Positions 2,523 through 40,159 of a stretch of 64,000 nt of DNA are shown in pieces (position 1 is the first letter of the stretch; each line of letters opens with the position of its first letter). The DNA is taken from positions 124,001-188,000 of the forward strand of contig NZ_CAIWTY010000086.1 of assembly GCF_903915725.1 (NCBI RefSeq), in the 5' to 3' direction. The DNA comes from an uncultured Rhodopila sp. (lineage in GTDB: Bacteria > Pseudomonadota > Alphaproteobacteria > Acetobacterales > Acetobacteraceae). The position numbers were made by a program, and so were the translations under genes. The notes below the pieces were generated by a model, which had not been told where the DNA came from, did not search any database, and saw only the letters and a list, made by a program, of their open reading frames with translations.

Positions 2523-2849
2523 GTGACGGAGGCGCTGACCTACCTGTCAGCGATTGGCCTGTTCAGCTTCGTGACCATGGCCAGCGCGATGATGCGGCAT
2601 GAGCTGCTGTTGGTGGCCTGCATGCCCGCGGTGTTCGTCGCCCTGATCATGGGCTTCGTGATGGCGATCTATGCGAATGATGCGTTCGGGGCGATGCCGG
2701 TGGGTGCAGCATTGATCGTCGGTGCCTTGCCCGGATGGTGGCTGAGCAGGCGGATCAGACCGAAGGAGCTGGCGATCGCGGTCTACCTCGGTTGGACGGT
2801 CGCCTTGGTGCTGGTGTTAGTGGCCGTCGGCTTCCCCGATCGGGGGTAA
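2523..2849 (+). CDS. small hypothetical membrane protein
   Basis: The 108-residue protein is almost entirely hydrophobic, with three to four predicted helices (about residues 8-22, 28-50, 57-73 and 84-103) and one short charged loop, SRRIRPKE. I do not recognise the family. The GTG start lies 7 bp after the preceding stop, which argues for translational coupling and for a real gene. The context (an MFS exporter and an aspartate-dehydrogenase-like enzyme upstream) gives no clear job; it could be an accessory membrane subunit. It is convergent with the exosortase locus at 2908. Confidence 0.55.
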   Translation: MTEALTYLSAIGLFSFVTMASAMMRHELLLVACMPAVFVALIMGFVMAIYANDAFGAMPVGAALIVGALPGWWLSRRIRPKELAIAVYLGWTVALVLVLVAVGFPDRG

Positions 2850-2907
2850 TGGCCGCTACGGGGAACCCGTATCACCGGCGAGCGGATCGCCTGAGACGCA
2901 CCTTCCC

Positions 2908-3381
2908 TTACGGAGTTGGCCACGCCGAGAGCGAAGACGTGGTGGCATCCAGATGACAAGCAGGTCCCGCGACCACCATGACTGGCTGCGCCACATGGCC
3001 ATCGCGAATCCGGGCCAGCAACTGGCGCATATGCACGCCCATTGCGGTCGCGGGCATGGGGCCAAGCGTATTCAGCAGCAGGAAGCGTTCGGCGCCCGCT
3101 TGATCCGCCTTCAGGGCTTGCAGTCTTGGCATGATTTCGTCGGCGTTGCCCATCGGAACGACGGACAGGCGGCAGTCACCGGCACCGGCAAAGTAATGGA
3201 TCAGGTAGATGCCGGAGGCGGTCAAAGGAGCGCTTTGTTCCAGCCGCAGGCCGTTCGCTGCTCCCCAGGCGGTTGCATCGCCACCGGGCTCACTCATGAC
3301 CCGGTCAGCCGGAAGCGGTCTGAACCATGCGCCGATGGCCACTGCAACTATGGCTGCGATCAGGGCCGCTATCCGTATCAT
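2908..3381 (-). CDS. exosortase-associated membrane-anchored hypothetical protein
   Basis: The 157-residue protein has one N-terminal hydrophobic segment (about residues 3-20, IRIAALIAAIVAVAIGAW), followed by a soluble domain that should face the periplasm. I see no catalytic motif; two cysteines sit at about residues 70 and 142. The start is fixed by a 4-bp ATGA overlap with the exosortase stop at 3378-3381, so the two are translationally coupled. The position recalls the EpsI-type partner encoded beside other exosortases, but the sequence does not show the EpsI family clearly. An accessory role in sorting or in handling the cleaved substrate is inference. Confidence 0.65.
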   Translation of the reverse strand: MIRIAALIAAIVAVAIGAWFRPLPADRVMSEPGGDATAWGAANGLRLEQSAPLTASGIYLIHYFAGAGDCRLSVVPMGNADEIMPRLQALKADQAGAERFLLLNTLGPMPATAMGVHMRQLLARIRDGHVAQPVMVVAGPACHLDATTSSLSAWPTP

Positions 3382-4208
3382 GCGGCTCGCCGGGAGGGCA
3401 GAGCCGCCAGGACGATCACGCCGGCCCAGGCCAGTTGCAGCGGCAATACTCCGGTTTCGGTATGCAAATATTGATAGATCGCGGGCGAGCACGCCATCGC
3501 CACAAGTCGGCCGGTGTTCAGCCCGCACAGCATCCCGAGCGCGGCGGCGACGCGCACCGCCGCGGGCATTTCCGCCGGCCGCACCAGGCGGCAAAGGGAA
3601 AAGGTGCCGACGGCGCAGGGATAAGCCAGCGTCAGCAGCGAGCAGGCGCGTAATATGACGAAGCTGTGGCCGTCCGGGAGCAATACCCGGTTGCCTGTAG
3701 CCTCGGCCATGATGCCGCCGAGGTTCAGAAAACCCGCTACGAGATGGCTCTCGATCCACAGCACCGGCACGCTGGCGAAACCGGCCCAGACGCTGTCTTT
3801 CAGGCCCCATCCGGCGAGTGCGAGCAGAAGGATGCCGCCGGCGCGTCCGACAACCCCGTTGGAGCGGAATGAGATCGCGGCGGCGCAACCAAGCGCCAGA
3901 GTGGCGGACATCCGAAACGGCATCATGCAGGCGAGCAGCGCCAGACCGAACAGCGCCCAATCGAGCGGCTCCGCCGGTGATGCCTCAAGCTTCGGCAGAC
4001 CAGCGATGAACGCGATAGCGGCCAGCACGATCATCGGATGAATGGAGCCACCGGCGATCGGCCCGGTCGCCAGTAGCCAGTGCGCGGCAGCGGCGACGGC
4101 CGCGCATCCCAGCAACCAGGCCGCCGAAACCGGGGCCGTTGCGTTCCCCGCGATGCGAAATGCGAGAGTGTCCTTGCAGATTGCAACGCGCCTGAGAAGC
4201 TCTCGCAT
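3378..4208 (-). CDS. exosortase/archaeosortase family transpeptidase
   Basis: The 276-residue multi-spanning membrane protein is in the short range for exosortases. The family's catalytic triad is visible in order: Cys189 in RACSLL, Arg234 in LNTGRL and His249 in YLHTETG, with the upstream GNRVLLPDG segment typical of the family. Exosortases cleave a C-terminal sorting signal (box, membrane helix, basic tail) on exported proteins and attach the product elsewhere. The cysteine motif is RACSLL rather than the more common ACSG, so this is a divergent subtype and I do not assign a class letter. It lies 18 bp downstream of a tiny protein with exactly such a signal and overlaps the next gene by 4 bp. 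Confidence 0.85.
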   Translation of the reverse strand: MRELLRRVAICKDTLAFRIAGNATAPVSAAWLLGCAAVAAAAHWLLATGPIAGGSIHPMIVLAAIAFIAGLPKLEASPAEPLDWALFGLALLACMMPFRMSATLALGCAAAISFRSNGVVGRAGGILLLALAGWGLKDSVWAGFASVPVLWIESHLVAGFLNLGGIMAEATGNRVLLPDGHSFVILRACSLLTLAYPCAVGTFSLCRLVRPAEMPAAVRVAAALGMLCGLNTGRLVAMACSPAIYQYLHTETGVLPLQLAWAGVIVLAALPSRRAA

Positions 4209-4226
4209 CGCCGCCGCTCCGGGGCG

Positions 4227-4415
4227 CTAACGGCCGATGCGGCGGTGGCGGACCACTGCCACGCCGCCGCCGCAGGCGAGGACGATCCCGAGCGTTGCCC
4301 AACCGAAATCGGGAGCGGGCAGTTCGCGGTCGTCTCCTCCGCCGTATTCGGCGTGGGCAAGCTGGACGGAACCGAGTAGCAGAACGATAGCGCAGGCGGC
4401 GATCAGGCGGGACAT
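4227..4415 (-). CDS. tiny exosortase substrate with C-terminal sorting signal
   Basis: The 62-residue protein has a signal peptide (residues 1-22, ending AHA), a short polar stretch EYGGGDDRELPAPD, a hydrophobic helix (about residues 38-56) and a basic tail RHRRIGR. That order, with a proline-rich box before the helix, is the layout of PEP-CTERM-like sorting domains; here the box reads LPAPDFG. After signal-peptide removal and exosortase cleavage only about a dozen residues would remain. AGGAG lies 7 nt before the ATG, which supports a real gene despite its size. It is first in the exosortase operon. In layout it resembles other very short exosortase substrates such as VPEID-CTERM proteins, with a different box. 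Confidence 0.75.
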   Translation of the reverse strand: MSRLIAACAIVLLLGSVQLAHAEYGGGDDRELPAPDFGWATLGIVLACGGGVAVVRHRRIGR

Positions 4416-4743
4416 GGCATTTCTCCTGGTTGTCGACGCCGGGGCAGTCGCAAATCGCGCGCCAGTTTGTTTTAATAAAAGTATTATGTGTTATGCGTTA
4501 TTACCGTAGGTGCGTGCACCGGGAACGGCAGCGCGCCCGAATTCGCTTCCGCATGGTTTCCTTCTCGATTGGCTCGATTGGCTCGATTGGCTCGATGGCG
4601 GATGCGGAGCGGATGAAGGGTGTATCGGCGGCCATTTCCGGTCACCAGGGTTCCGGTTCGCGGGAAATCGTCATCGGGGTTGATTGGCCCCTGTTGGCAA
4701 ATCCACCGAGAGGCGGGTTGAAAAAGCCGCGTCCGACTGGCTG
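4416..4743. promoter_or_regulatory. intergenic region upstream of the exosortase operon
   Basis: These 328 bp separate the start of the tiny substrate gene (4415) from the stop of the MFS gene (4744), so they must hold the exosortase-operon promoter and the upstream gene's 3' end. The part next to 4415 contains an AT-rich stretch at about 4468-4505 that stands out from the GC-rich surroundings. A 9-bp tandem repeat lies at 4564-4596. I see no convincing gene. Confidence 0.4.
4564..4596. repeat. 9-bp tandem repeat, about 3.7 copies
   Basis: The unit CTCGATTGG occurs at 4564-4572, 4573-4581 and 4582-4590 without a mismatch, followed by a partial CTCGAT at 4591-4596. It is non-coding and lies between the MFS gene and the exosortase operon. 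Confidence 0.9.
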
Positions 4744-5928
4744 CTAGGCACTGCGCTCGCGTCCAGCGCGTCGCAGCCCCCACATCAGTAAAAGTATCGC
4801 CGGCAGCAGCGCGCCCGTCAGGCACAACCCGTTCCATCCCGCCATCCCGAAACTGAAGCTCGCGAGTGCGGAACCGGCGGACGCGCCGATAAAGGTGGTC
4901 GTCATGTAGACGGCGGTGATGCGCGAGCGAGCCTGCGGGTTCAACCTGTAGATCACGGACTGGTTCGAAATGTGCAACGCCTGCGCTCCGACATCGAGCG
5001 AGAAGGCGCCTGCAACAACTGCCCAAATCGAAAGGCTGCCGAACGCCAGCACACCCCATGACAGCAACAACACCGCCGCGGCCACACCTGTCACTGTGTT
5101 GGCATGCCCCCGATCGGCCAGCCGCCCGGCCACATTGGCCGCCAGGGCGCCGGCCGCGCCAATAAGGCCGAACAGGCCGATGGTCGCTTCGGTGTAATGG
5201 TAGGGCGGTCCACTCAAAAGGAACGTCAACCCTGTCCACAGCACGCTGAACGTTCCCAACCCCAACGCAAAATACGCCGATCGGCGGCGCAGTTCCGGTT
5301 CGGCGCGGGCGAGGTGCAGCAGCGAGAGCAGCAAACGCCCATACTGCAGGCGTCCGCGCATGCCTTCGTGCGGGATTGCGGCACGTAGCGCCAACAGCAA
5401 CGCGGCGACCATTGCGGCGGCGATCAGATACATCGAGCGCCAGCCGAACCATTCCGCAACCAGGCCGGAGACGGTCCTCGCCAGCAGAATGCCCAGCAAC
5501 AAACCGGTCATGACCTGCCCGATATAGCGGCCCCGCGAGTCCTCCGGCGCTTTGGAAGCGACGTACGGGATCACCACCATGGCGGCGCTGGAACTGCATC
5601 CCGCGACCAGGCTGGCGGCGGCGAAGCTGACGAAGCCGGGGCTGGCGCCGGCGGCGAGCAGGGCGGCGATGTTGACCCCGAGCATGCCCGACAGCAGTTG
5701 ACGCCGATCGAGCACATCCCCCAGCGGGACGACCAGCAACAGGCCGAGCGCATAGCCGAGCTGGGTGAAGGTAACCAGATATCCGGCGCTGGTAACACTG
5801 CAACCGAACGACGCGGCGATCGCGGCCAGCAACGGCTGGACGTAGTAAAGGTTCGCGACCATCGTCCCCGCCGTGACGGCGAACAGCAGCACGCGCCAGC
5901 GGTTGAGCCATTCGGGCTGAGCACTCAT
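4744..5928 (-). CDS. MFS transporter, DHA1-type (YnfM-like)
   Basis: The 394-residue protein has the length and hydrophobicity of a 12-helix major-facilitator carrier. The opening GTMVANLYYVQPLLAAIA and the loop motif PLGDVLDRRQLL match the YnfM-like group of bacterial MFS exporters, often annotated as multidrug or sugar efflux. A second loop, GRLADRGH, near residue 270 is the repeat of that motif in the second half. The substrate is unknown. The glutamine amidotransferase lies upstream on the same strand with only 16 bp between its stop and this start, so the two may be cotranscribed. Confidence 0.8.
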   Translation of the reverse strand: MSAQPEWLNRWRVLLFAVTAGTMVANLYYVQPLLAAIAASFGCSVTSAGYLVTFTQLGYALGLLLVVPLGDVLDRRQLLSGMLGVNIAALLAAGASPGFVSFAAASLVAGCSSSAAMVVIPYVASKAPEDSRGRYIGQVMTGLLLGILLARTVSGLVAEWFGWRSMYLIAAAMVAALLLALRAAIPHEGMRGRLQYGRLLLSLLHLARAEPELRRRSAYFALGLGTFSVLWTGLTFLLSGPPYHYTEATIGLFGLIGAAGALAANVAGRLADRGHANTVTGVAAAVLLLSWGVLAFGSLSIWAVVAGAFSLDVGAQALHISNQSVIYRLNPQARSRITAVYMTTTFIGASAGSALASFSFGMAGWNGLCLTGALLPAILLLMWGLRRAGRERSA

Positions 5929-5944
5929 CCCGGGATAATGCGCG

Positions 5945-6655
5945 TCAGACGATCTCGGTCAGCCACCGGCCGAACACGGCCTCGGCGACCCCGCGCGCGT
6001 GCACGGCGACCTGCGCTGTTGCCGCCCGGAGGTTCCGAATGGAAATACCGGCCGCAGCCAGTTCGACGGCATGTCCGACATACCAGTGCTCCAGCCGTTT
6101 CGGATCCACTTCGAGATGAAACTGCAGGCCGAGTCCTTGCCTCCGATACGCGAACGCCTGGTTTTTGCAGACCGTTGTGGATGCAAGCAGCGACGCGCCA
6201 TCGGGCAGGTTGAATGTATCGCCATGCCAATGGAGAACCACGGCGCCGCCATCCAGTGCGCCAAGGCAGGAGGATTCTCCCGCCTCGGTCAAGCTCACCG
6301 CACTCCATCCGATTTCCTTGGCGCCACTCGGGTACACCGCTTGCCCCAGCGCGCGTGCCATGAGCTGTGCGCCAAGGCAGATGCCCAAAGTCGGCAGATC
6401 CCGCGTCAGACGCTGCTCCAGCAGTTCAATCTCTCGCAGGAGAAACGGATAATCCTCCGCATCGTAAACGCCGATCGGCCCGCCGAGAATGATCAGGAGA
6501 TCGGCTTTGGCGATATGTGGTGCGGCCAGATCGCCGGTCGCGGCATCACAATAGGAAAAGTCCCAACCCGCCCGATCGAGAATCGGGCCGAGCAAACCAA
6601 GATCCTCGAACGCAATATGACGGATGGCGACGGCGGAGCGGCGGGGGACGGGCAT
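5945..6655 (-). CDS. class I glutamine amidotransferase domain protein
   Basis: The 236-residue protein has the full amidotransferase triad: Cys93 in GICLGAQ, His180 and Glu182 in LQFHLEV, plus the oxyanion-strand motif ILGGPIGVYD. This is the stand-alone form related to the GuaA glutaminase domain (GMP synthase-like); such proteins hydrolyse glutamine or gamma-glutamyl compounds in the cytoplasm. No synthetase partner is next to it, so the acceptor is unknown. It precedes the MFS gene on the same strand at 16 bp. Confidence 0.82.
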   Translation of the reverse strand: MPVPRRSAVAIRHIAFEDLGLLGPILDRAGWDFSYCDAATGDLAAPHIAKADLLIILGGPIGVYDAEDYPFLLREIELLEQRLTRDLPTLGICLGAQLMARALGQAVYPSGAKEIGWSAVSLTEAGESSCLGALDGGAVVLHWHGDTFNLPDGASLLASTTVCKNQAFAYRRQGLGLQFHLEVDPKRLEHWYVGHAVELAAAGISIRNLRAATAQVAVHARGVAEAVFGRWLTEIV

Positions 6656-6697: not shown

Positions 6698-8422
6698 TCA
6701 GCCGAATGTAAAGGCGTATGCCTCCACACCCGGATCGAGGAAACGGATTTCGAAGGTGCGGTCGCCGATGGCGCCAGTCTGCCGGACAAGCTGATACAGC
6801 CGCTGGCTCGTCACGGTGCCCTGGCCATCGGCATCCGTGTCTGCCCCATGGCTGTCCCCCGGCGGCGCGCCGTCGATGGTGATCCGAAACCGTATGGGCG
6901 CGGCTTCCGCCGCCGGGCCGAGCACGAGGTGAAGGTCGCGCGCATGGAAGCGGTAGACGATGCTGCCCCCCGGTTGGTTGAGTTCCGCATGCTCGCCGTT
7001 GATCGTCCAGTCACCGGCCAGGCCCCATTGATTGAGCCCCGGCGTCCCAGCCGAATACACGCGCGGCGCGTTGCGGACTGAACCGCCCGGGGAGACGAAA
7101 TTCTCCGCCCGGGTGAAGCCGATATAGGTTTCCGGCGACTGCGTATCGGCCATGTCGGCAGCGGCTTCCGCCCCGGTTGCCTGCACCGCCACCAGGCGGT
7201 CCGCAACGCCGGTCTTGCCGGCTTCGGCGAGCAGTTGCTGAATCACCCGCTCCGACTCGTCGTATTCGCCCTCACCGAAATGGTGGTGGCGGATCTGCCC
7301 CTGCGCGTCGATGAAGTAGTGCGCCGGCCAGTAATGGTTGCCGAACGCCCGCCAGATCGCATAGTCGTTGTCGATCGCTACCGGATAATCAATTCCGAGA
7401 TCTGCTACCGCTTTCTTCACGTTGTCGATTTTCCGCTCGAAGGCGAATTCCGGCGCATGCACGCCGATGACGACCAGCCCTTGGTCCTTGTACTTTTCCG
7501 CCCAGGCGCGAACATAGGGGATCGAGCGCAGGCAGTTGATGCAGGAATAGGTCCAGAAATCCACCAGCACGACCTTGCCGCGCAGCCCTTCGGCCGTCAG
7601 CGGCGGCGAGTTCAGCCAGGCGACTGCCCCGGTCAGCGGCGGCATCTCGTCCTCGACGGGCAGTGCGCCGGCGGTCTTCGGGCCATCCGCCGCGGGATGG
7701 AACCGGTCCAGCAGCCCCTGCTCCAGCGAGGCCGTGCCGGCGGCCGAGACGCGGGTCAGGAAGCCGGTATCGAGGCCCAGCCCGATGACGGCCACGGCAA
7801 CCAGCACCGCGGCGCCCAGGCCGCGCCGCACCCACTCGCCAACGCCGAGCGAGCGTTTCATCGCCGCGAACACCCGCCCGCCAACCAGCAGCGCCAGCGC
7901 CAGCGAGGTGGCTGCTCCGGCCGCGTAGGCCAGCAGCAGCAGAGAGGTCCCGACGCTGGCGCCCTGAAGCGCCGCGCCGGTCAGGATCAGGCCCAGGACC
8001 GGGCCGGCGCACGGCGCCCAAAGCAGCCCGGTGGCGACGCCCAGCAGCAACGATGGCAGGATCGTCCCGCCGCCCGCGCGCTCCTGCCCATCGGCGGATT
8101 GCGACAGGCGCGCGCCGAGGGCGACGAGCGGGCGGGTCATCCGATCTGCCAGGGCCGGGAACAGCAGCGTGACGCCGAACAGTGCGAGCAGCGCCAGTGC
8201 CGCCAGACGGCCATAGCTATTCGCCTCGACCGCCCAGCCGCCTCCGACAGCCGCCAGGGTGGCGACCGCGGCAAAGGTGGCCGCCATGCCAAGCAGCAAG
8301 GGCAGGCCGCTGCTGATGAAGGGGCGGTCCGCGCGGGCGAAGACGAAGGGCAGGACGGGGAGGATGCACGGGCTGACGATGGTCAGCACGCCGCCGAGAT
8401 AGGCCAGCAGGAACAGGATCAT
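6698..8422 (-). CDS. dipZ: DipZ-type thiol-disulfide transporter (CcdA + thioredoxin-like fusion)
   Basis: The 574-residue protein has three parts. Residues 1-220 are a CcdA-like membrane domain with the paired cysteines Cys19 (SPCILPVLPF) and Cys138 (WAPCAGP). Residues about 255-415 form a periplasmic thioredoxin/TlpA-like domain with active-site Cys294-Cys297 in WTYSCINC, a motif characteristic of DipZ. The last roughly 150 residues form the carbohydrate-binding-like C-terminal domain of this family. It should carry electrons from cytoplasmic thioredoxin across the membrane to periplasmic proteins. I chose the ATG at 8422 because the membrane domain begins there. It starts 16 bp after the msrB stop, so MsrB is the likely client. 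Confidence 0.88.
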   Translation of the reverse strand: MILFLLAYLGGVLTIVSPCILPVLPFVFARADRPFISSGLPLLLGMAATFAAVATLAAVGGGWAVEANSYGRLAALALLALFGVTLLFPALADRMTRPLVALGARLSQSADGQERAGGGTILPSLLLGVATGLLWAPCAGPVLGLILTGAALQGASVGTSLLLLAYAAGAATSLALALLVGGRVFAAMKRSLGVGEWVRRGLGAAVLVAVAVIGLGLDTGFLTRVSAAGTASLEQGLLDRFHPAADGPKTAGALPVEDEMPPLTGAVAWLNSPPLTAEGLRGKVVLVDFWTYSCINCLRSIPYVRAWAEKYKDQGLVVIGVHAPEFAFERKIDNVKKAVADLGIDYPVAIDNDYAIWRAFGNHYWPAHYFIDAQGQIRHHHFGEGEYDESERVIQQLLAEAGKTGVADRLVAVQATGAEAAADMADTQSPETYIGFTRAENFVSPGGSVRNAPRVYSAGTPGLNQWGLAGDWTINGEHAELNQPGGSIVYRFHARDLHLVLGPAAEAAPIRFRITIDGAPPGDSHGADTDADGQGTVTSQRLYQLVRQTGAIGDRTFEIRFLDPGVEAYAFTFG

Positions 8423-8438
8423 CGGTGGTGCCCCGCTG

Positions 8439-8933
8439 TCACGCGGTCGCGGGCCGGAACGCCATCGCGACACCGTTCATGCAGTAGCGCAAGCCCGTCG
8501 GCTGCGGTCCATCGTCGAACACATGGCCCAGATGGCCGCCGCAGCGGCGGCAATTCACCGCGGTCCGGACCATGAAGAAGCTCGTGTCCCGCTCCTGCAC
8601 GACGGCATTGTCGAGCGGCGCCCAGAAGCTCGGCCATCCGGTGCCGCTGTCGAACTTCGTGGTGGAGGAGAACAGGTCCAGGTCGCAGCCCGCACAGGTG
8701 AAGGTGCCGCGGCGTTCCTCATGCAGCAGCGGGCTGGTGAAGGGCCGTTCGGTGCCGGCCTGCCGCAGAACGCTGAACTGCGCGGGGGAGAGACGTTTCC
8801 GCCACTCGGCATCGGTATAGTGGACTTCGAACGTCTCCGCGGCTGGCGCGGGGGTGCTCCAGCGCCAGGCGGCGAACGCCGCAGCCACGCCCGCGGTCCC
8901 ACCGGCTATAAGACGACGCCTCGTCACCATCAT
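8439..8933 (-). CDS. msrB: exported peptide-methionine (R)-S-oxide reductase
   Basis: The 164-residue protein reduces methionine-R-sulfoxide in damaged proteins. Two zinc-binding CxxC pairs are present (Cys80/Cys83 and Cys128/Cys131), and the catalytic Cys151 lies in RYCMNG. The N-terminus carries a twin-arginine-like signal (TRRRLIAGG, then a hydrophobic stretch to about residue 33), so this copy acts in the periplasm, unlike standard cytosolic MsrB. It sits 16 bp upstream of dipZ, which can supply the reductant. Two adjacent ATG codons (8933, 8930) are possible starts. Confidence 0.9.
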   Translation of the reverse strand: MMVTRRRLIAGGTAGVAAAFAAWRWSTPAPAAETFEVHYTDAEWRKRLSPAQFSVLRQAGTERPFTSPLLHEERRGTFTCAGCDLDLFSSTTKFDSGTGWPSFWAPLDNAVVQERDTSFFMVRTAVNCRRCGGHLGHVFDDGPQPTGLRYCMNGVAMAFRPATA

Positions 8934-33125: not shown

Positions 33126-33200
33126 AAGCTATAGACCCGGGAGTGCATTTATATGTTGATCGTCAACGCTGTGACTGAGGTGGTGCCGGAAGATTCGAGA

Positions 33201-33899
33201 ATGCTGTGTACAAAGAAATTGAAAATCAAATACCTGACACGGAGCGTCCTTACGTTTGCACTCATGGTGGCTATGGCCACGGCTGCGGCCGCCGCGCCCA
33301 TAGACACGACGGGTTCTAACACCGGACCTATTTACGCTTTCGGATTCCCCAACACTGCGACTTACGGCGAGACGTTCACGCCCGATGCCTCGCAAACTAC
33401 CCTCACCGATTTTTCTATGTATCTTGAGGATCGGTATGCCGGCAGTTTCCCTCTCAACCTGCGTGGCTACATCGCGACTTGGAATGGTTCATATGCGGGG
33501 ACCATTCTGTATGAGAGCGCCACGCAAACGATGAACGCCGCTGGGACCTTGCAAGAATTTGACTTCAATCCCGACATCACTTTAAGTTCTGGCAGCACCT
33601 ATGTAGCTTTCCTAAGCGTATCCAACCTGCCAGCCCAACAGGTATCCCTTTTTGGCATGCCGGGTTCGAACGTCGTCATTCCGGGTGGCGCATTCGTCTT
33701 TAATAATAACGGTATGGACTTCGCTGCACTGACGTCATCTGCTTGGGCAGTAGATCCAGCGAATGACGTCTGGTTCAAAGCCAGTTTTGGGGAAGCCGTC
33801 CCTGTGGGTGAACCTCTCACATTGCCGATGTTTGGTCTTGCGCTTGCGGTTTTAGGCTTCGTTGCAAGGCGCGGGCAAAACTGTGACCTTCAGGGATAA
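33201..33899 (+). CDS. PEP-CTERM-type exported protein
   Basis: The 232-residue protein has a signal peptide (KKLKIKYLTRSVLTFALMV, cleavage after the alanine run), a beta-rich body with many Thr/Ser/Asn residues, and a C-terminal signal: VPVGEPLTLP, a hydrophobic FGLALAVLGFV stretch, then ARRG. This matches the PEP-CTERM order (VPxPEP, helix, basic cluster), with GEP in place of PEP. Such proteins are cleaved by an exosortase and released or anchored at the surface. An in-frame ATG at 33153 is an alternative; I prefer 33201 because GGAAG lies 8 nt upstream and the signal peptide is then normal. Base use is more AT-rich than the surroundings, suggesting transfer. Confidence 0.7.
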   Translation: MLCTKKLKIKYLTRSVLTFALMVAMATAAAAAPIDTTGSNTGPIYAFGFPNTATYGETFTPDASQTTLTDFSMYLEDRYAGSFPLNLRGYIATWNGSYAGTILYESATQTMNAAGTLQEFDFNPDITLSSGSTYVAFLSVSNLPAQQVSLFGMPGSNVVIPGGAFVFNNNGMDFAALTSSAWAVDPANDVWFKASFGEAVPVGEPLTLPMFGLALAVLGFVARRGQNCDLQG

Positions 33900-38122: not shown

Positions 38123-39457
38123 CTAGACCGGCAGCCGGATGCGCGCGCGCAGGCCGCCGAGCGGGCTATCCTCCAGCACGATCTCCCCGCCATGCGCGCG
38201 CACGATATCCCGTGCGATAGTCAATCCCAGCCCGGTACCTCCCGCCGCACCGCTCTCGAACGGCCGGAACACGCTCTCCCGCCGATCGGCCGGGATCCCG
38301 GGGCCATCGTCATCGACGGTAACCAACACCGAACGCTCCTGCGCCGTCGCGGTCAGCGCGATACGATGGGCATGGCGGCGCGCATTATCCACCAGGTTGG
38401 TCACCGCACGCCGTAATGCATCGGCACGCAGCTTCAGCGTCAGGTCCGGCGGCACGTCGAGGTCCAGCTCCGCCCCCGCGCGCCGCGCGCCGGCCGCGAC
38501 TTCCTCAAGGATGCAGCACAGGTTGACCGGCATCGCCTGCTCGGTCTTCTCGCCCCGGGCGAATGCCAGGTAGCCGCTGATCATGCGCTCCATTTCGTCC
38601 ACGTCGGCGGTCATCTCGGCAATGTCCTGGCGCAGATCCTCGGTTGGAGGCAGCATCGCCAGGGCCAGCCGCAACCGTGTCAGCGGCGTGCGCAGGTCGT
38701 GCGACACGCCCGCCAGCATTTCGGTCCGTTGCGCCAGGAAGCGGCGGATGCGTTCCTGCATCTTGTTGAAGGCGGCGGCGGCCTGCCGCACCTCCGCCGC
38801 GCCCTCTGGCCGGATCGCCGGCACCTCCCGCCCCATGCCGAACGCCTCGGCAGAACGGGCGAGCCGGCGAATGGCGCGCACCTGGTTGCGCATGAACAGC
38901 GCGGCGATCACGAACAGCAGCAGCGCCGAACCCACCAGCCAGCCGACGAACAGGAACAGCGTCCCGATGGCCAGCCGCTTGCGAGGCGCCGCCACATCCA
39001 GCACCCCGTCCGGCAGTTGCAGCCGGATCAGCACTGATTGCGGGTCGGAGGTCCAGTCCATGGTGAAGGGAGCATTGAACTTTTCCGTCAGCGCCGCTGC
39101 CAGGTCGTCATCCATCGGTCCGAGGACGTTCTTCCACTTCCGGCTTTCCAGAACCGCGCCCGGCTCCATCCTGATATCGAGCGTGAACTGGCGCCGCGCC
39201 ATGTCCAGCACCCACTCGCGGCCTTGGGCGGTTGGGGCTTGCTGCATCAGTTCGACGGTATAGGCGATCTCTCCGGCAATGGCGCTGGACAGCCGGCGCG
39301 ACACGATCCCCAGGTGGCTGCCGTAGAACATCTGCAGCGCGATCGCCTGCACCAGCACCAGCGGCACCAGCATGATCAGCAACGTGCGCCCAAGCAGCGA
39401 TGTCGGCAGCAACTGTTTGATCCGCGCCTCAAACGGCAGGCCGATGCGTATGCGCAT
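38123..39457 (-). CDS. sensor histidine kinase, EnvZ-like
   Basis: The 444-residue inner-membrane kinase has helices at about residues 20-42 and 165-190 flanking a periplasmic sensor region, a HAMP linker, a phosphoacceptor histidine in AGVSHDLRTPLTRLRL, and an ATP-binding GHKL domain with NLVDNARRHA, DDGPGIP and GTGLGLTIARD. It receives a periplasmic signal and phosphorylates the regulator encoded 3 bp upstream. The pair resembles EnvZ/OmpR. Signal unknown. Confidence 0.9.
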   Translation of the reverse strand: MRIRIGLPFEARIKQLLPTSLLGRTLLIMLVPLVLVQAIALQMFYGSHLGIVSRRLSSAIAGEIAYTVELMQQAPTAQGREWVLDMARRQFTLDIRMEPGAVLESRKWKNVLGPMDDDLAAALTEKFNAPFTMDWTSDPQSVLIRLQLPDGVLDVAAPRKRLAIGTLFLFVGWLVGSALLLFVIAALFMRNQVRAIRRLARSAEAFGMGREVPAIRPEGAAEVRQAAAAFNKMQERIRRFLAQRTEMLAGVSHDLRTPLTRLRLALAMLPPTEDLRQDIAEMTADVDEMERMISGYLAFARGEKTEQAMPVNLCCILEEVAAGARRAGAELDLDVPPDLTLKLRADALRRAVTNLVDNARRHAHRIALTATAQERSVLVTVDDDGPGIPADRRESVFRPFESGAAGGTGLGLTIARDIVRAHGGEIVLEDSPLGGLRARIRLPV

Positions 39458-39460
39458 GCG

Positions 39461-40159
39461 TCAGGTGCCCGGCTTCAGGATGTAGCCGCGCCCGCGCACG
39501 GTATGCAGGAAGCGCGGCTCTCGCGGGTCGGTCTCGATCTTGCGGCGCAGGCGCACCACCTGCACGTCGATCGCCCGCTCGCCGGCGTCGTCCATCCCCA
39601 AAGCCTCGGCGATCTCTTCGCGCGACAGCACCTCGTTCGGCTTGCGCGCCAAAGCCGTCAGCAGCGCCGCCTCGCCGCCGGTCAGCCGGATCGGCCCCTC
39701 GGCGTCGCGCAGTTCCCCGCGTTCGACATCGAACGCGGCCCCGCCGATGCGCACGGCAGCGAGCGGCACCTCCGGCGACGGCGGCGGCGGCGCGCGGCGC
39801 AGCAAGGCACGAATGCGCAGCACCAGCTCCCGCGGCTCGAACGGCTTGCCGAGGTAGTCGTCGGCCCCGGCCTCGAATCCGGCGATCCGGTCCTCCGGAG
39901 CGCCCCGCGCGGTCAGCATCAGGATTGGCAGGTCATGGGTCTCCCGGCGCAGCGATTCGGTCAATTCAAGCCCGGTTTCCCCCGGCATCATCACGTCCAG
40001 CACCAGCAGGTCGGGATTGATCGATCGGAGCTTGGAGCGGGCCTCGGCGGCATCGGCCGCCGCGGTGACGCGAAAGCCCTCCCCTGCCAGATATCGTGCC
40101 AGACGTTCCCGCAGCCGGGGATCGTCTTCGACCACAAGGATGTGGCATTCGTCGGCCAT
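39461..40159 (-). CDS. OmpR-family response regulator
   Basis: The 232-residue protein has a receiver domain with phosphoacceptor Asp55 in LLVLDVMMPG, lysine in GKPFEPREL, and a C-terminal winged helix ending VRGRGYILKPGT. The start at 40159 begins MADECHILVVEDD; the longer open frame upstream is out of character. It is followed 3 bp later by its kinase. The MarR gene stop is 17 bp upstream, so all three may be cotranscribed. Confidence 0.92.
   Translation of the reverse strand: MADECHILVVEDDPRLRERLARYLAGEGFRVTAAADAAEARSKLRSINPDLLVLDVMMPGETGLELTESLRRETHDLPILMLTARGAPEDRIAGFEAGADDYLGKPFEPRELVLRIRALLRRAPPPPSPEVPLAAVRIGGAAFDVERGELRDAEGPIRLTGGEAALLTALARKPNEVLSREEIAEALGMDDAGERAIDVQVVRLRRKIETDPREPRFLHTVRGRGYILKPGT

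Follow-up and report, generated by a model that had tools for sequence, protein, structure and literature searches.

Organization of the locus

Three minus-strand genes encoding a substrate, an exosortase and a partner protein lie within positions 2908–4415 of the window (the whole 64,000-nucleotide stretch of DNA that was analysed), and their coordinates, frames and residues were all verified. The first gene (4227..4415, −) encodes an exported substrate of 62 amino acids. Its signal peptide (residues 1–22, MSRLIAACAIVLLLGSVQLAHA) ends in an Ala-His-Ala signal-peptidase-like site after residue 22 and is separated by about nine residues, EYGGGDDRE, from a tail that consists of the sorting box LPAPDFGW (residues 32–39; 4299..4322, −; ELPAPDFGW with the preceding residue), a 16-residue hydrophobic run and a basic end, RHRRIGR (hydrophobic segment and basic tail, 4230..4298, −, read from the sequence). 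The substrate thereby has the tripartite architecture with an N-terminal signal, in which a box is followed by a hydrophobic run and a basic end. A preliminary description of this DNA put the residues left after sorting at about a dozen, a fair estimate because about nine lie between the signal peptide and the box. The likely ribosome-binding site, AGGAG (4423..4427, −), stands 7 nt before the substrate ATG, and a sigma-54-like promoter, TGGCGCGCGATTTGCG (4449..4464, −), lies 33 nt ahead of the same codon.

The exosortase gene (3378..4208, −; 276 aa) starts 18 bases past the substrate gene. The ATG of the partner gene (2908..3381, −; 157 aa) overlaps the exosortase stop codon as ATGA (3381–3378), in line with the coupling noted in the preliminary description. 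Alignment, profile searches and a structure model point to an N-terminal hydrophobic anchor and a predicted soluble α/β domain in this protein.

An aspartate dehydrogenase, a 108-aa protein and an MFS transporter adjoin the triple in a Pfam and NCBIfam scan, and no exopolysaccharide, glycan or lipid genes were found among the scanned neighbours. The dehydrogenase and MFS genes also flank the locus of one relative, which is 79% identical and comes from a metagenome-assembled genome labelled uncultured Rhodopila. This points to a probable host related to Rhodopila within the acetobacterial group. A short tandem repeat with the unit tggctcgat occupies about 4563–4596 of the window, between the substrate and MFS genes. 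The region 6698–8933 (−), upstream of the triple, encodes a SelR (MsrB) protein as well as a thioredoxin-like protein that weakly matches DsbD_TM; functions in thiol chemistry thus lie close to the partner and its two invariant cysteines. Gene calls in the compared loci came from a simple GC-position script, not from a published gene finder.

Exosortase identity and phylogeny

By Kyte-Doolittle hydropathy, the window exosortase has eight hydrophobic segments and its relatives have 4 to 9. The window protein carries Cys189 within RACSLL, the motif Asn231-x-x-Arg234 and the motif His249-x3-Gly253. Across an alignment of 27 rows, Cys189, Arg234, His249 and Gly253 are kept in every row and Asn231 in 25. 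The triad that had been proposed for this enzyme, with Cys189 as the predicted nucleophile (3642..3644, −) and Arg234 (3507..3509, −) and His249 (3462..3464, −) as predicted catalytic residues, is confirmed, as it falls in the same columns in all 27 rows and in canonical exosortases.

The window exosortase does not match the Pfam and NCBIfam exosortase models even at E ≤ 1, and its identification rests on the triad and the relatives because no library model matches. Of the eleven proteins scanned singly against Pfam PF09721, one passes the cut-off, namely L032, a clade mate of the window (28.3 against 25.7 bits, residues 38–243). Single-protein scans against NCBIfam release 20 covered the window and 20 relatives; two of these 21 proteins exceed the generic TIGR04178 cut-off of 23 bits (L045 at 24.7 and L099 at 24.6), and none exceeds that of a named exosortase type. 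Alignment of 18 rows from the taxonomic family with 15 Pfam-type exosortases by hhalign gave a probability of 95.5% (E 1.4e-8), with the C, R, H and G columns in register, and the five clade-1 rows alone gave 78% (E 1.7e-5). A structure model of the exosortase was too poor for use (mean pLDDT 42), PDB sequence searches gave no useful match, and no relatives were found among viral contigs and plasmids.

The 27 rows were placed in a maximum-likelihood tree with 15 canonical exosortases, which represent 15 of the 16 places found (the remaining one, L075, is truncated at a contig end). This subfamily check showed that exosortases of the present kind branch apart from the canonical ones, with a split supported at 97/97. 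The window falls in a five-member clade, clade 1 (support 100/99), next to which stand three rows whose tails read APLP.AGIP, followed by L099, whose tail reads APGPDFG, the deep order of the tree being unsure because of long branches and midpoint rooting.

The earlier suggestion of an undescribed exosortase/substrate pairing is borne out by this separate branch, by the failure of all 21 proteins to reach a named NCBIfam type and by the tails, since none of the five clade-1 substrates reaches the cut-off of an NCBIfam tail model, PEP-CTERM and other catalogued tails included. The nearest catalogued tail is MprA_tail, against which the 53-aa L055 substrate scores 18.9 against 19.7 bits; this near-cut-off score of the L055 tail, obtained with a GlyGly-CTERM model, is read as a shared make-up of the tails. 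A literature search found no description of this exosortase clade, which does not establish its absence from print. On this evidence, the window module is an undescribed type of exosortase, substrate and partner, and its enzyme is an exosortase by triad, topology and profile, though it fails score-based definitions.

The exosortase/PEP-CTERM system (PF09721, TIGR04178; XrtA and relatives) resembles the module in its 8-TM enzyme, where C..R..H, N-x-x-R and H-x3-G occupy matching columns, in the tripartite tails of its exported proteins, in the sigma-54-type promoters of its substrate genes and in an accessory protein that is encoded downstream or as a fusion. The module differs in its boxes, which are LPA..[FL]GW, APLP.AGIP or PGP(I/L) and not PEP, in a partner that is not EpsI, in a substrate gene that adjoins that of the enzyme, and in its separate branch.

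Substrates, sorting boxes and promoters

An HMM of four relatives, from which the window was excluded, singled out the 62-residue frame: of the 1417 stop-to-stop frames in the window, no other scored significantly (E 2.1e-20 for this frame, 0.62 for the next). The frame is beyond chance because this window-free HMM picks only that one. Directly upstream of the exosortase in all five clade-1 loci is a protein with the tail LPA-x-x-[FL]GW-x-[TS]L, in which Leu32, Pro33, Ala34, Gly38 and Trp39 (window numbering) are invariant. These substrates comprise 62 aa in the window, 68 in L053, 53 in L055, 77 in L032 and 288 in the Gly/Ser-rich L035, with about 9, 15, 5, 24 and >200 residues, respectively, from signal peptide to box as read from the sequence. 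Because of this spread of lengths, small size is usual for clade-1 substrates and not defining. The idea of a dedicated substrate of 62 residues therefore stands as a conserved box protein beside the exosortase (5/5), but not as a fixed length, which varies from 53 to 288 aa.

The substrate HMM found one strong tail match per genome, the exosortase neighbour, in all five clade-1 genomes (next best E 0.007), and for this reason the clade-1 substrate and exosortase are regarded as a dedicated pair; this HMM was built from the same proteins, and the independent test is the window-free HMM. One substrate per exosortase thus describes clade 1, but not L126, where two dissimilar short proteins (678–983 and 2787–3176) with a common tail, VPGPLEGVGLPF, flank one exosortase/partner pair. 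That two unlike proteins beside one exosortase share a tail suggests that the enzyme reads the tail. A comparable pairing is found in the single-target rhombosortase/GlyGly-CTERM system, whose enzyme is encoded beside its only target according to one report (PMC3237569). The two systems have in common a dedicated enzyme-target pair encoded side by side, but rhombosortase is a rhomboid serine protease, an unrelated enzyme, and uses another box.

The sister clades use other boxes and other bodies; boxes outside clade 1 include APLP.AGIP and PGP(I/L). Tripartite tails occur in 19 of 114 genes located ≤1.2 kb from an exosortase versus 3 of 152 farther off, under a rule written after the tails had been seen, and one of the near matches (window 4744–5928) is the MFS transporter. 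The 19 near matches are spread over 18 of the 27 loci. Substrates were recognized by eye at five further loci (L034, L036, L041, L047 and L055); none was seen by eye at L046, L098 and L103, and at L101 there is just a frame truncated at the end of the contig. Short substrates of 74–106 aa are present at L033, L037, L039, L099, L100 and L102, of which L037, outside clade 1, just passes the LPXTG_anchor model (16.1 against 15.9). A STAS-domain protein adjoins the exosortase module in two distant genomes (L033, 7771–8073; L099, 2170–2493).

Comparison of the window with L053 gave dN/dS values of 0.84 for the substrate, 0.25 for the exosortase and 0.30 for the partner, and the whole-frame value of 0.84 speaks against strong selection on the entire 62-aa frame, in which the box is held while the body drifts. 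The substrate bodies are of low complexity and do not align with each other. Such a near-neutral ratio across the whole frame, the unalignable low-complexity bodies and the 288-aa clade-1 member could also be expected if the short protein were a decaying remnant of a larger former exosortase client of which only the tail is left. We regard this as very unlikely, as short forms recur in four of the five clade-1 loci and in sister clades, each with an N-terminal hydrophobic segment, a box and a basic tail; six of those ten short forms are preceded by a sigma-54 site of at least 9/11; and the five box residues named above are invariant.

The supposition that the system is confined to tiny substrates does not hold, since sister clades use other tails, some of them on large proteins. 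Among 17 substrates of related exosortases, seven match the exosortase-dependent surface protein family Npun_F0296 (NF050191) at E ≤ 1 (best 7e-24) and two match choice-of-anchor A, whereas the window substrate (none at E ≤ 1) and the other clade-1 substrates do not match Npun_F0296. These large surface-type proteins bear on whether the membrane enzyme acts simply as an intramembrane protease that frees a peptide, for signalling or turnover, without transfer to an acceptor. A cut near the tail by Cys, Arg and His would free a peptide of 5–24 residues, which is the size of known peptide signals, and glycan or lipid genes are absent from the scanned neighbours of the window triple. However, in the sister loci an enzyme and a partner of this kind accompany the large proteins, and apparent glycosyltransferases, named by reading the sequence without a scan, adjoin L101, L103, L104, L118 and L121. 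A plain protease therefore appears somewhat unlikely.

The sigma-54-like site of the window agrees at 9/11 positions (shuffle p 0.01) with the consensus, which we take to be TGGCACNNNNNTTGCW; it is a consensus match only, and sites scoring as high number 15 on the two strands of 64 kb. Sites of at least 9/11 stand ahead of 15 of 23 substrates versus 21 of the 247 remaining genes in these loci (Fisher p 9e-10, which is not a clean probability because the 23 substrates share ancestry). In this count the starts of L036, L038, L041, L048 and L102 were set by eye, with rough distances, and L118, L121 and L126 were excluded. The substrates of L032, L037, L041, L043 and L045 have 10 or 11 of the 11 positions at 30–45 nt, and no recognizable site lies upstream of the substrate of L053, the closest relative. 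Haft 2006 (PMC1569441), in its account of PEP-CTERM genes, places sigma-54 sites ahead of them together with an upstream motif ending TTTACA. This activator motif was found in none of 14 upstream regions of up to 100 nt each. A PrsR-type regulator exceeds its cut-off in five of the eight genomes tested, including that of the window.

The partner family, its distribution and a proposed role

The substrate, exosortase and partner occur together in all five clade-1 loci, in agreement with the conserved triple that had been anticipated. A search of 397 genomes of the taxonomic family returned 20 places in 18 genomes. Two of these places, L028 (E 0.0018) and L029 (E 0.006), are not exosortases and were dropped, which leaves 18 loci in 16 genomes. 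All 18 loci (window included) have the partner, as 13 separate genes and five fusions to the exosortase; these partners were picked as the next frame or the fused end and then aligned, and their presence is partly by choice. The independent test is a blind genome search, in which the partner profile alone matches eight of 289 class genomes, and all seven matches outside the taxonomic family have an exosortase of this type directly in front.

The exosortase profile matches ten of the 289 class genomes, that is, the eight partner-positive genomes and two more, of which G657 has a partner on inspection (E 7e-9) and G643 a weak frame only (E 0.05). The system is sparse, as about 3% of the class genomes drawn carry a match; in a phylum draw, the exosortase profile matches four of 299 genomes, one of them (G930, L127) spuriously. 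A contig search added four loci, two of which apparently duplicate contigs of G154 and G356. The partner is also present in L053 and L055, the two further clade-1 loci. Overall, it lies beside or is fused to 29 of 30 exosortases of this kind inspected, a tally made up of the 18 family loci, L053, L055, L098–L104 (covered with about 1.5 kb on either side), L118 and L126, L121 being the doubtful one of the 30.

Gly44, Cys70 (3172..3174, −) and Cys142 (2956..2958, −) are the only invariant columns in the 18-row partner alignment. For this alignment, the L033 partner was trimmed to 140 aa; its frame (genome G280, about 6083–6502, −) lacks a stop and runs into the next gene, by sequencing error or read-on. 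Searches of Pfam, NCBIfam and the PDB yielded no family at a meaningful score for the partner. The best NCBIfam match, SkfA (E 0.0038), was obtained for one of 18 members only and is taken as chance. The partner structure model (mean pLDDT 63.8) shows, at moderate confidence, an anchor helix and a small α/β domain. A Foldseek search with this model returned nothing at E ≤ 0.001, and VIA-align reached at best Z 5.4, mostly with kinase N-lobes, which is read as a common arrangement only.

Its position downstream of the exosortase or fused to its C-terminus, together with an anchor and a small α/β domain, would make the partner resemble EpsI (DUF3485, PF11984), and it could be a highly diverged member of that family and not a separate one. 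In 96 class genomes, each of the eight DUF3485 matches lies in one long frame of 518 aa or more, behind the exosortase. However, none of the 18 partner members matches DUF3485 at E ≤ 1, a profile comparison with eight alphaproteobacterial DUF3485 domains gave a probability of 4.7% (E 0.0085 over 57 columns), and the two invariant cysteines have no counterpart across the DUF3485 rows. In this comparison, made by sequence only, no relation was detected, and we consider a diverged EpsI unlikely. The partner is a predicted family of its own, uncatalogued and not detectably EpsI.

What can be read directly from sequence is the existence and order of the genes, the export signal and tail of the substrate, the triad, the conservation of the triple, the clade-specific box, the constancy of the partner and the promoter enrichment. 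The peptide may be a surface or matrix product. We know of no bacterial exosortase product, and to our knowledge the action of bacterial exosortases on their substrates, and the loading target, are unproven. We think it likely that the locus, whose exosortase belongs to an undescribed clade, is a dedicated module for the processing of a short peptide, with the partner as an accessory subunit. The peptide would be transcribed from the sigma-54-type promoter and exported through Sec, and signal peptidase would remove its signal peptide. As the tripartite pattern suggests, the hydrophobic segment and the Arg-rich tail would then anchor the peptide in the inner membrane, with LPAPDFGW exposed on the periplasmic side. 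By analogy with the exosortase family, the enzyme would recognize the box and Cys189 would attack near it with Arg234 and His249, so that the N-terminal piece, here about 9–14 residues, could be released or passed to an acceptor en route to the surface or extracellular matrix. The partner would be an inner-membrane protein with a periplasmic domain, probably disulfide-bonded between Cys70 and Cys142, and may act as the accessory subunit that takes the place of EpsI in canonical exosortases. The discussion of exosortase in Haft 2006 (PMC1569441) left the receiving nucleophile unknown. A more specific scheme, in which the tiny sigma-54-induced peptide (5–24 residues) is the product, linked to or carried through a surface lipid or glycan, and one invariant cysteine of the partner subunit participates in transfer (a thiol relay or acceptor-presenting step) beyond a structural disulfide, strikes us as improbable.

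Other sorting genes are present in the same genome (G000). A second exosortase of the clan, fused to its partner, lies at C75:236443–239428 (L036, 5944–8929), and a divergent choice-of-anchor A-like protein is its likely substrate. An ordinary exosortase system is present as well, as indicated by a canonical exosortase (contig C34:25002–25745, L072) and, about 13 kb off (38750–40075), a PrsR-type sigma-54 regulator over cut-off. Within the window, the tail of a 248-aa protein (33153–33899, +) resembles PEP-CTERM but stays below cut-off (11.3 against 16 bits with TIGR02595; E 2e-4 with the THxN family).

Pfam and NCBIfam cut-offs would leave the enzyme, the tail and the partner of the window all unnamed. 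The window substrate is pared down to a signal peptide, a few residues and a sorting box, with its own enzyme and a constant helper alongside, and the three genes are compact enough for joint transfer. The product, of perhaps 5–24 residues, would be short enough for direct mass spectrometry, which would make exosortase chemistry unusually easy to test, and the partner family may open a way to study an exosortase accessory subunit with no detected relation to EpsI.
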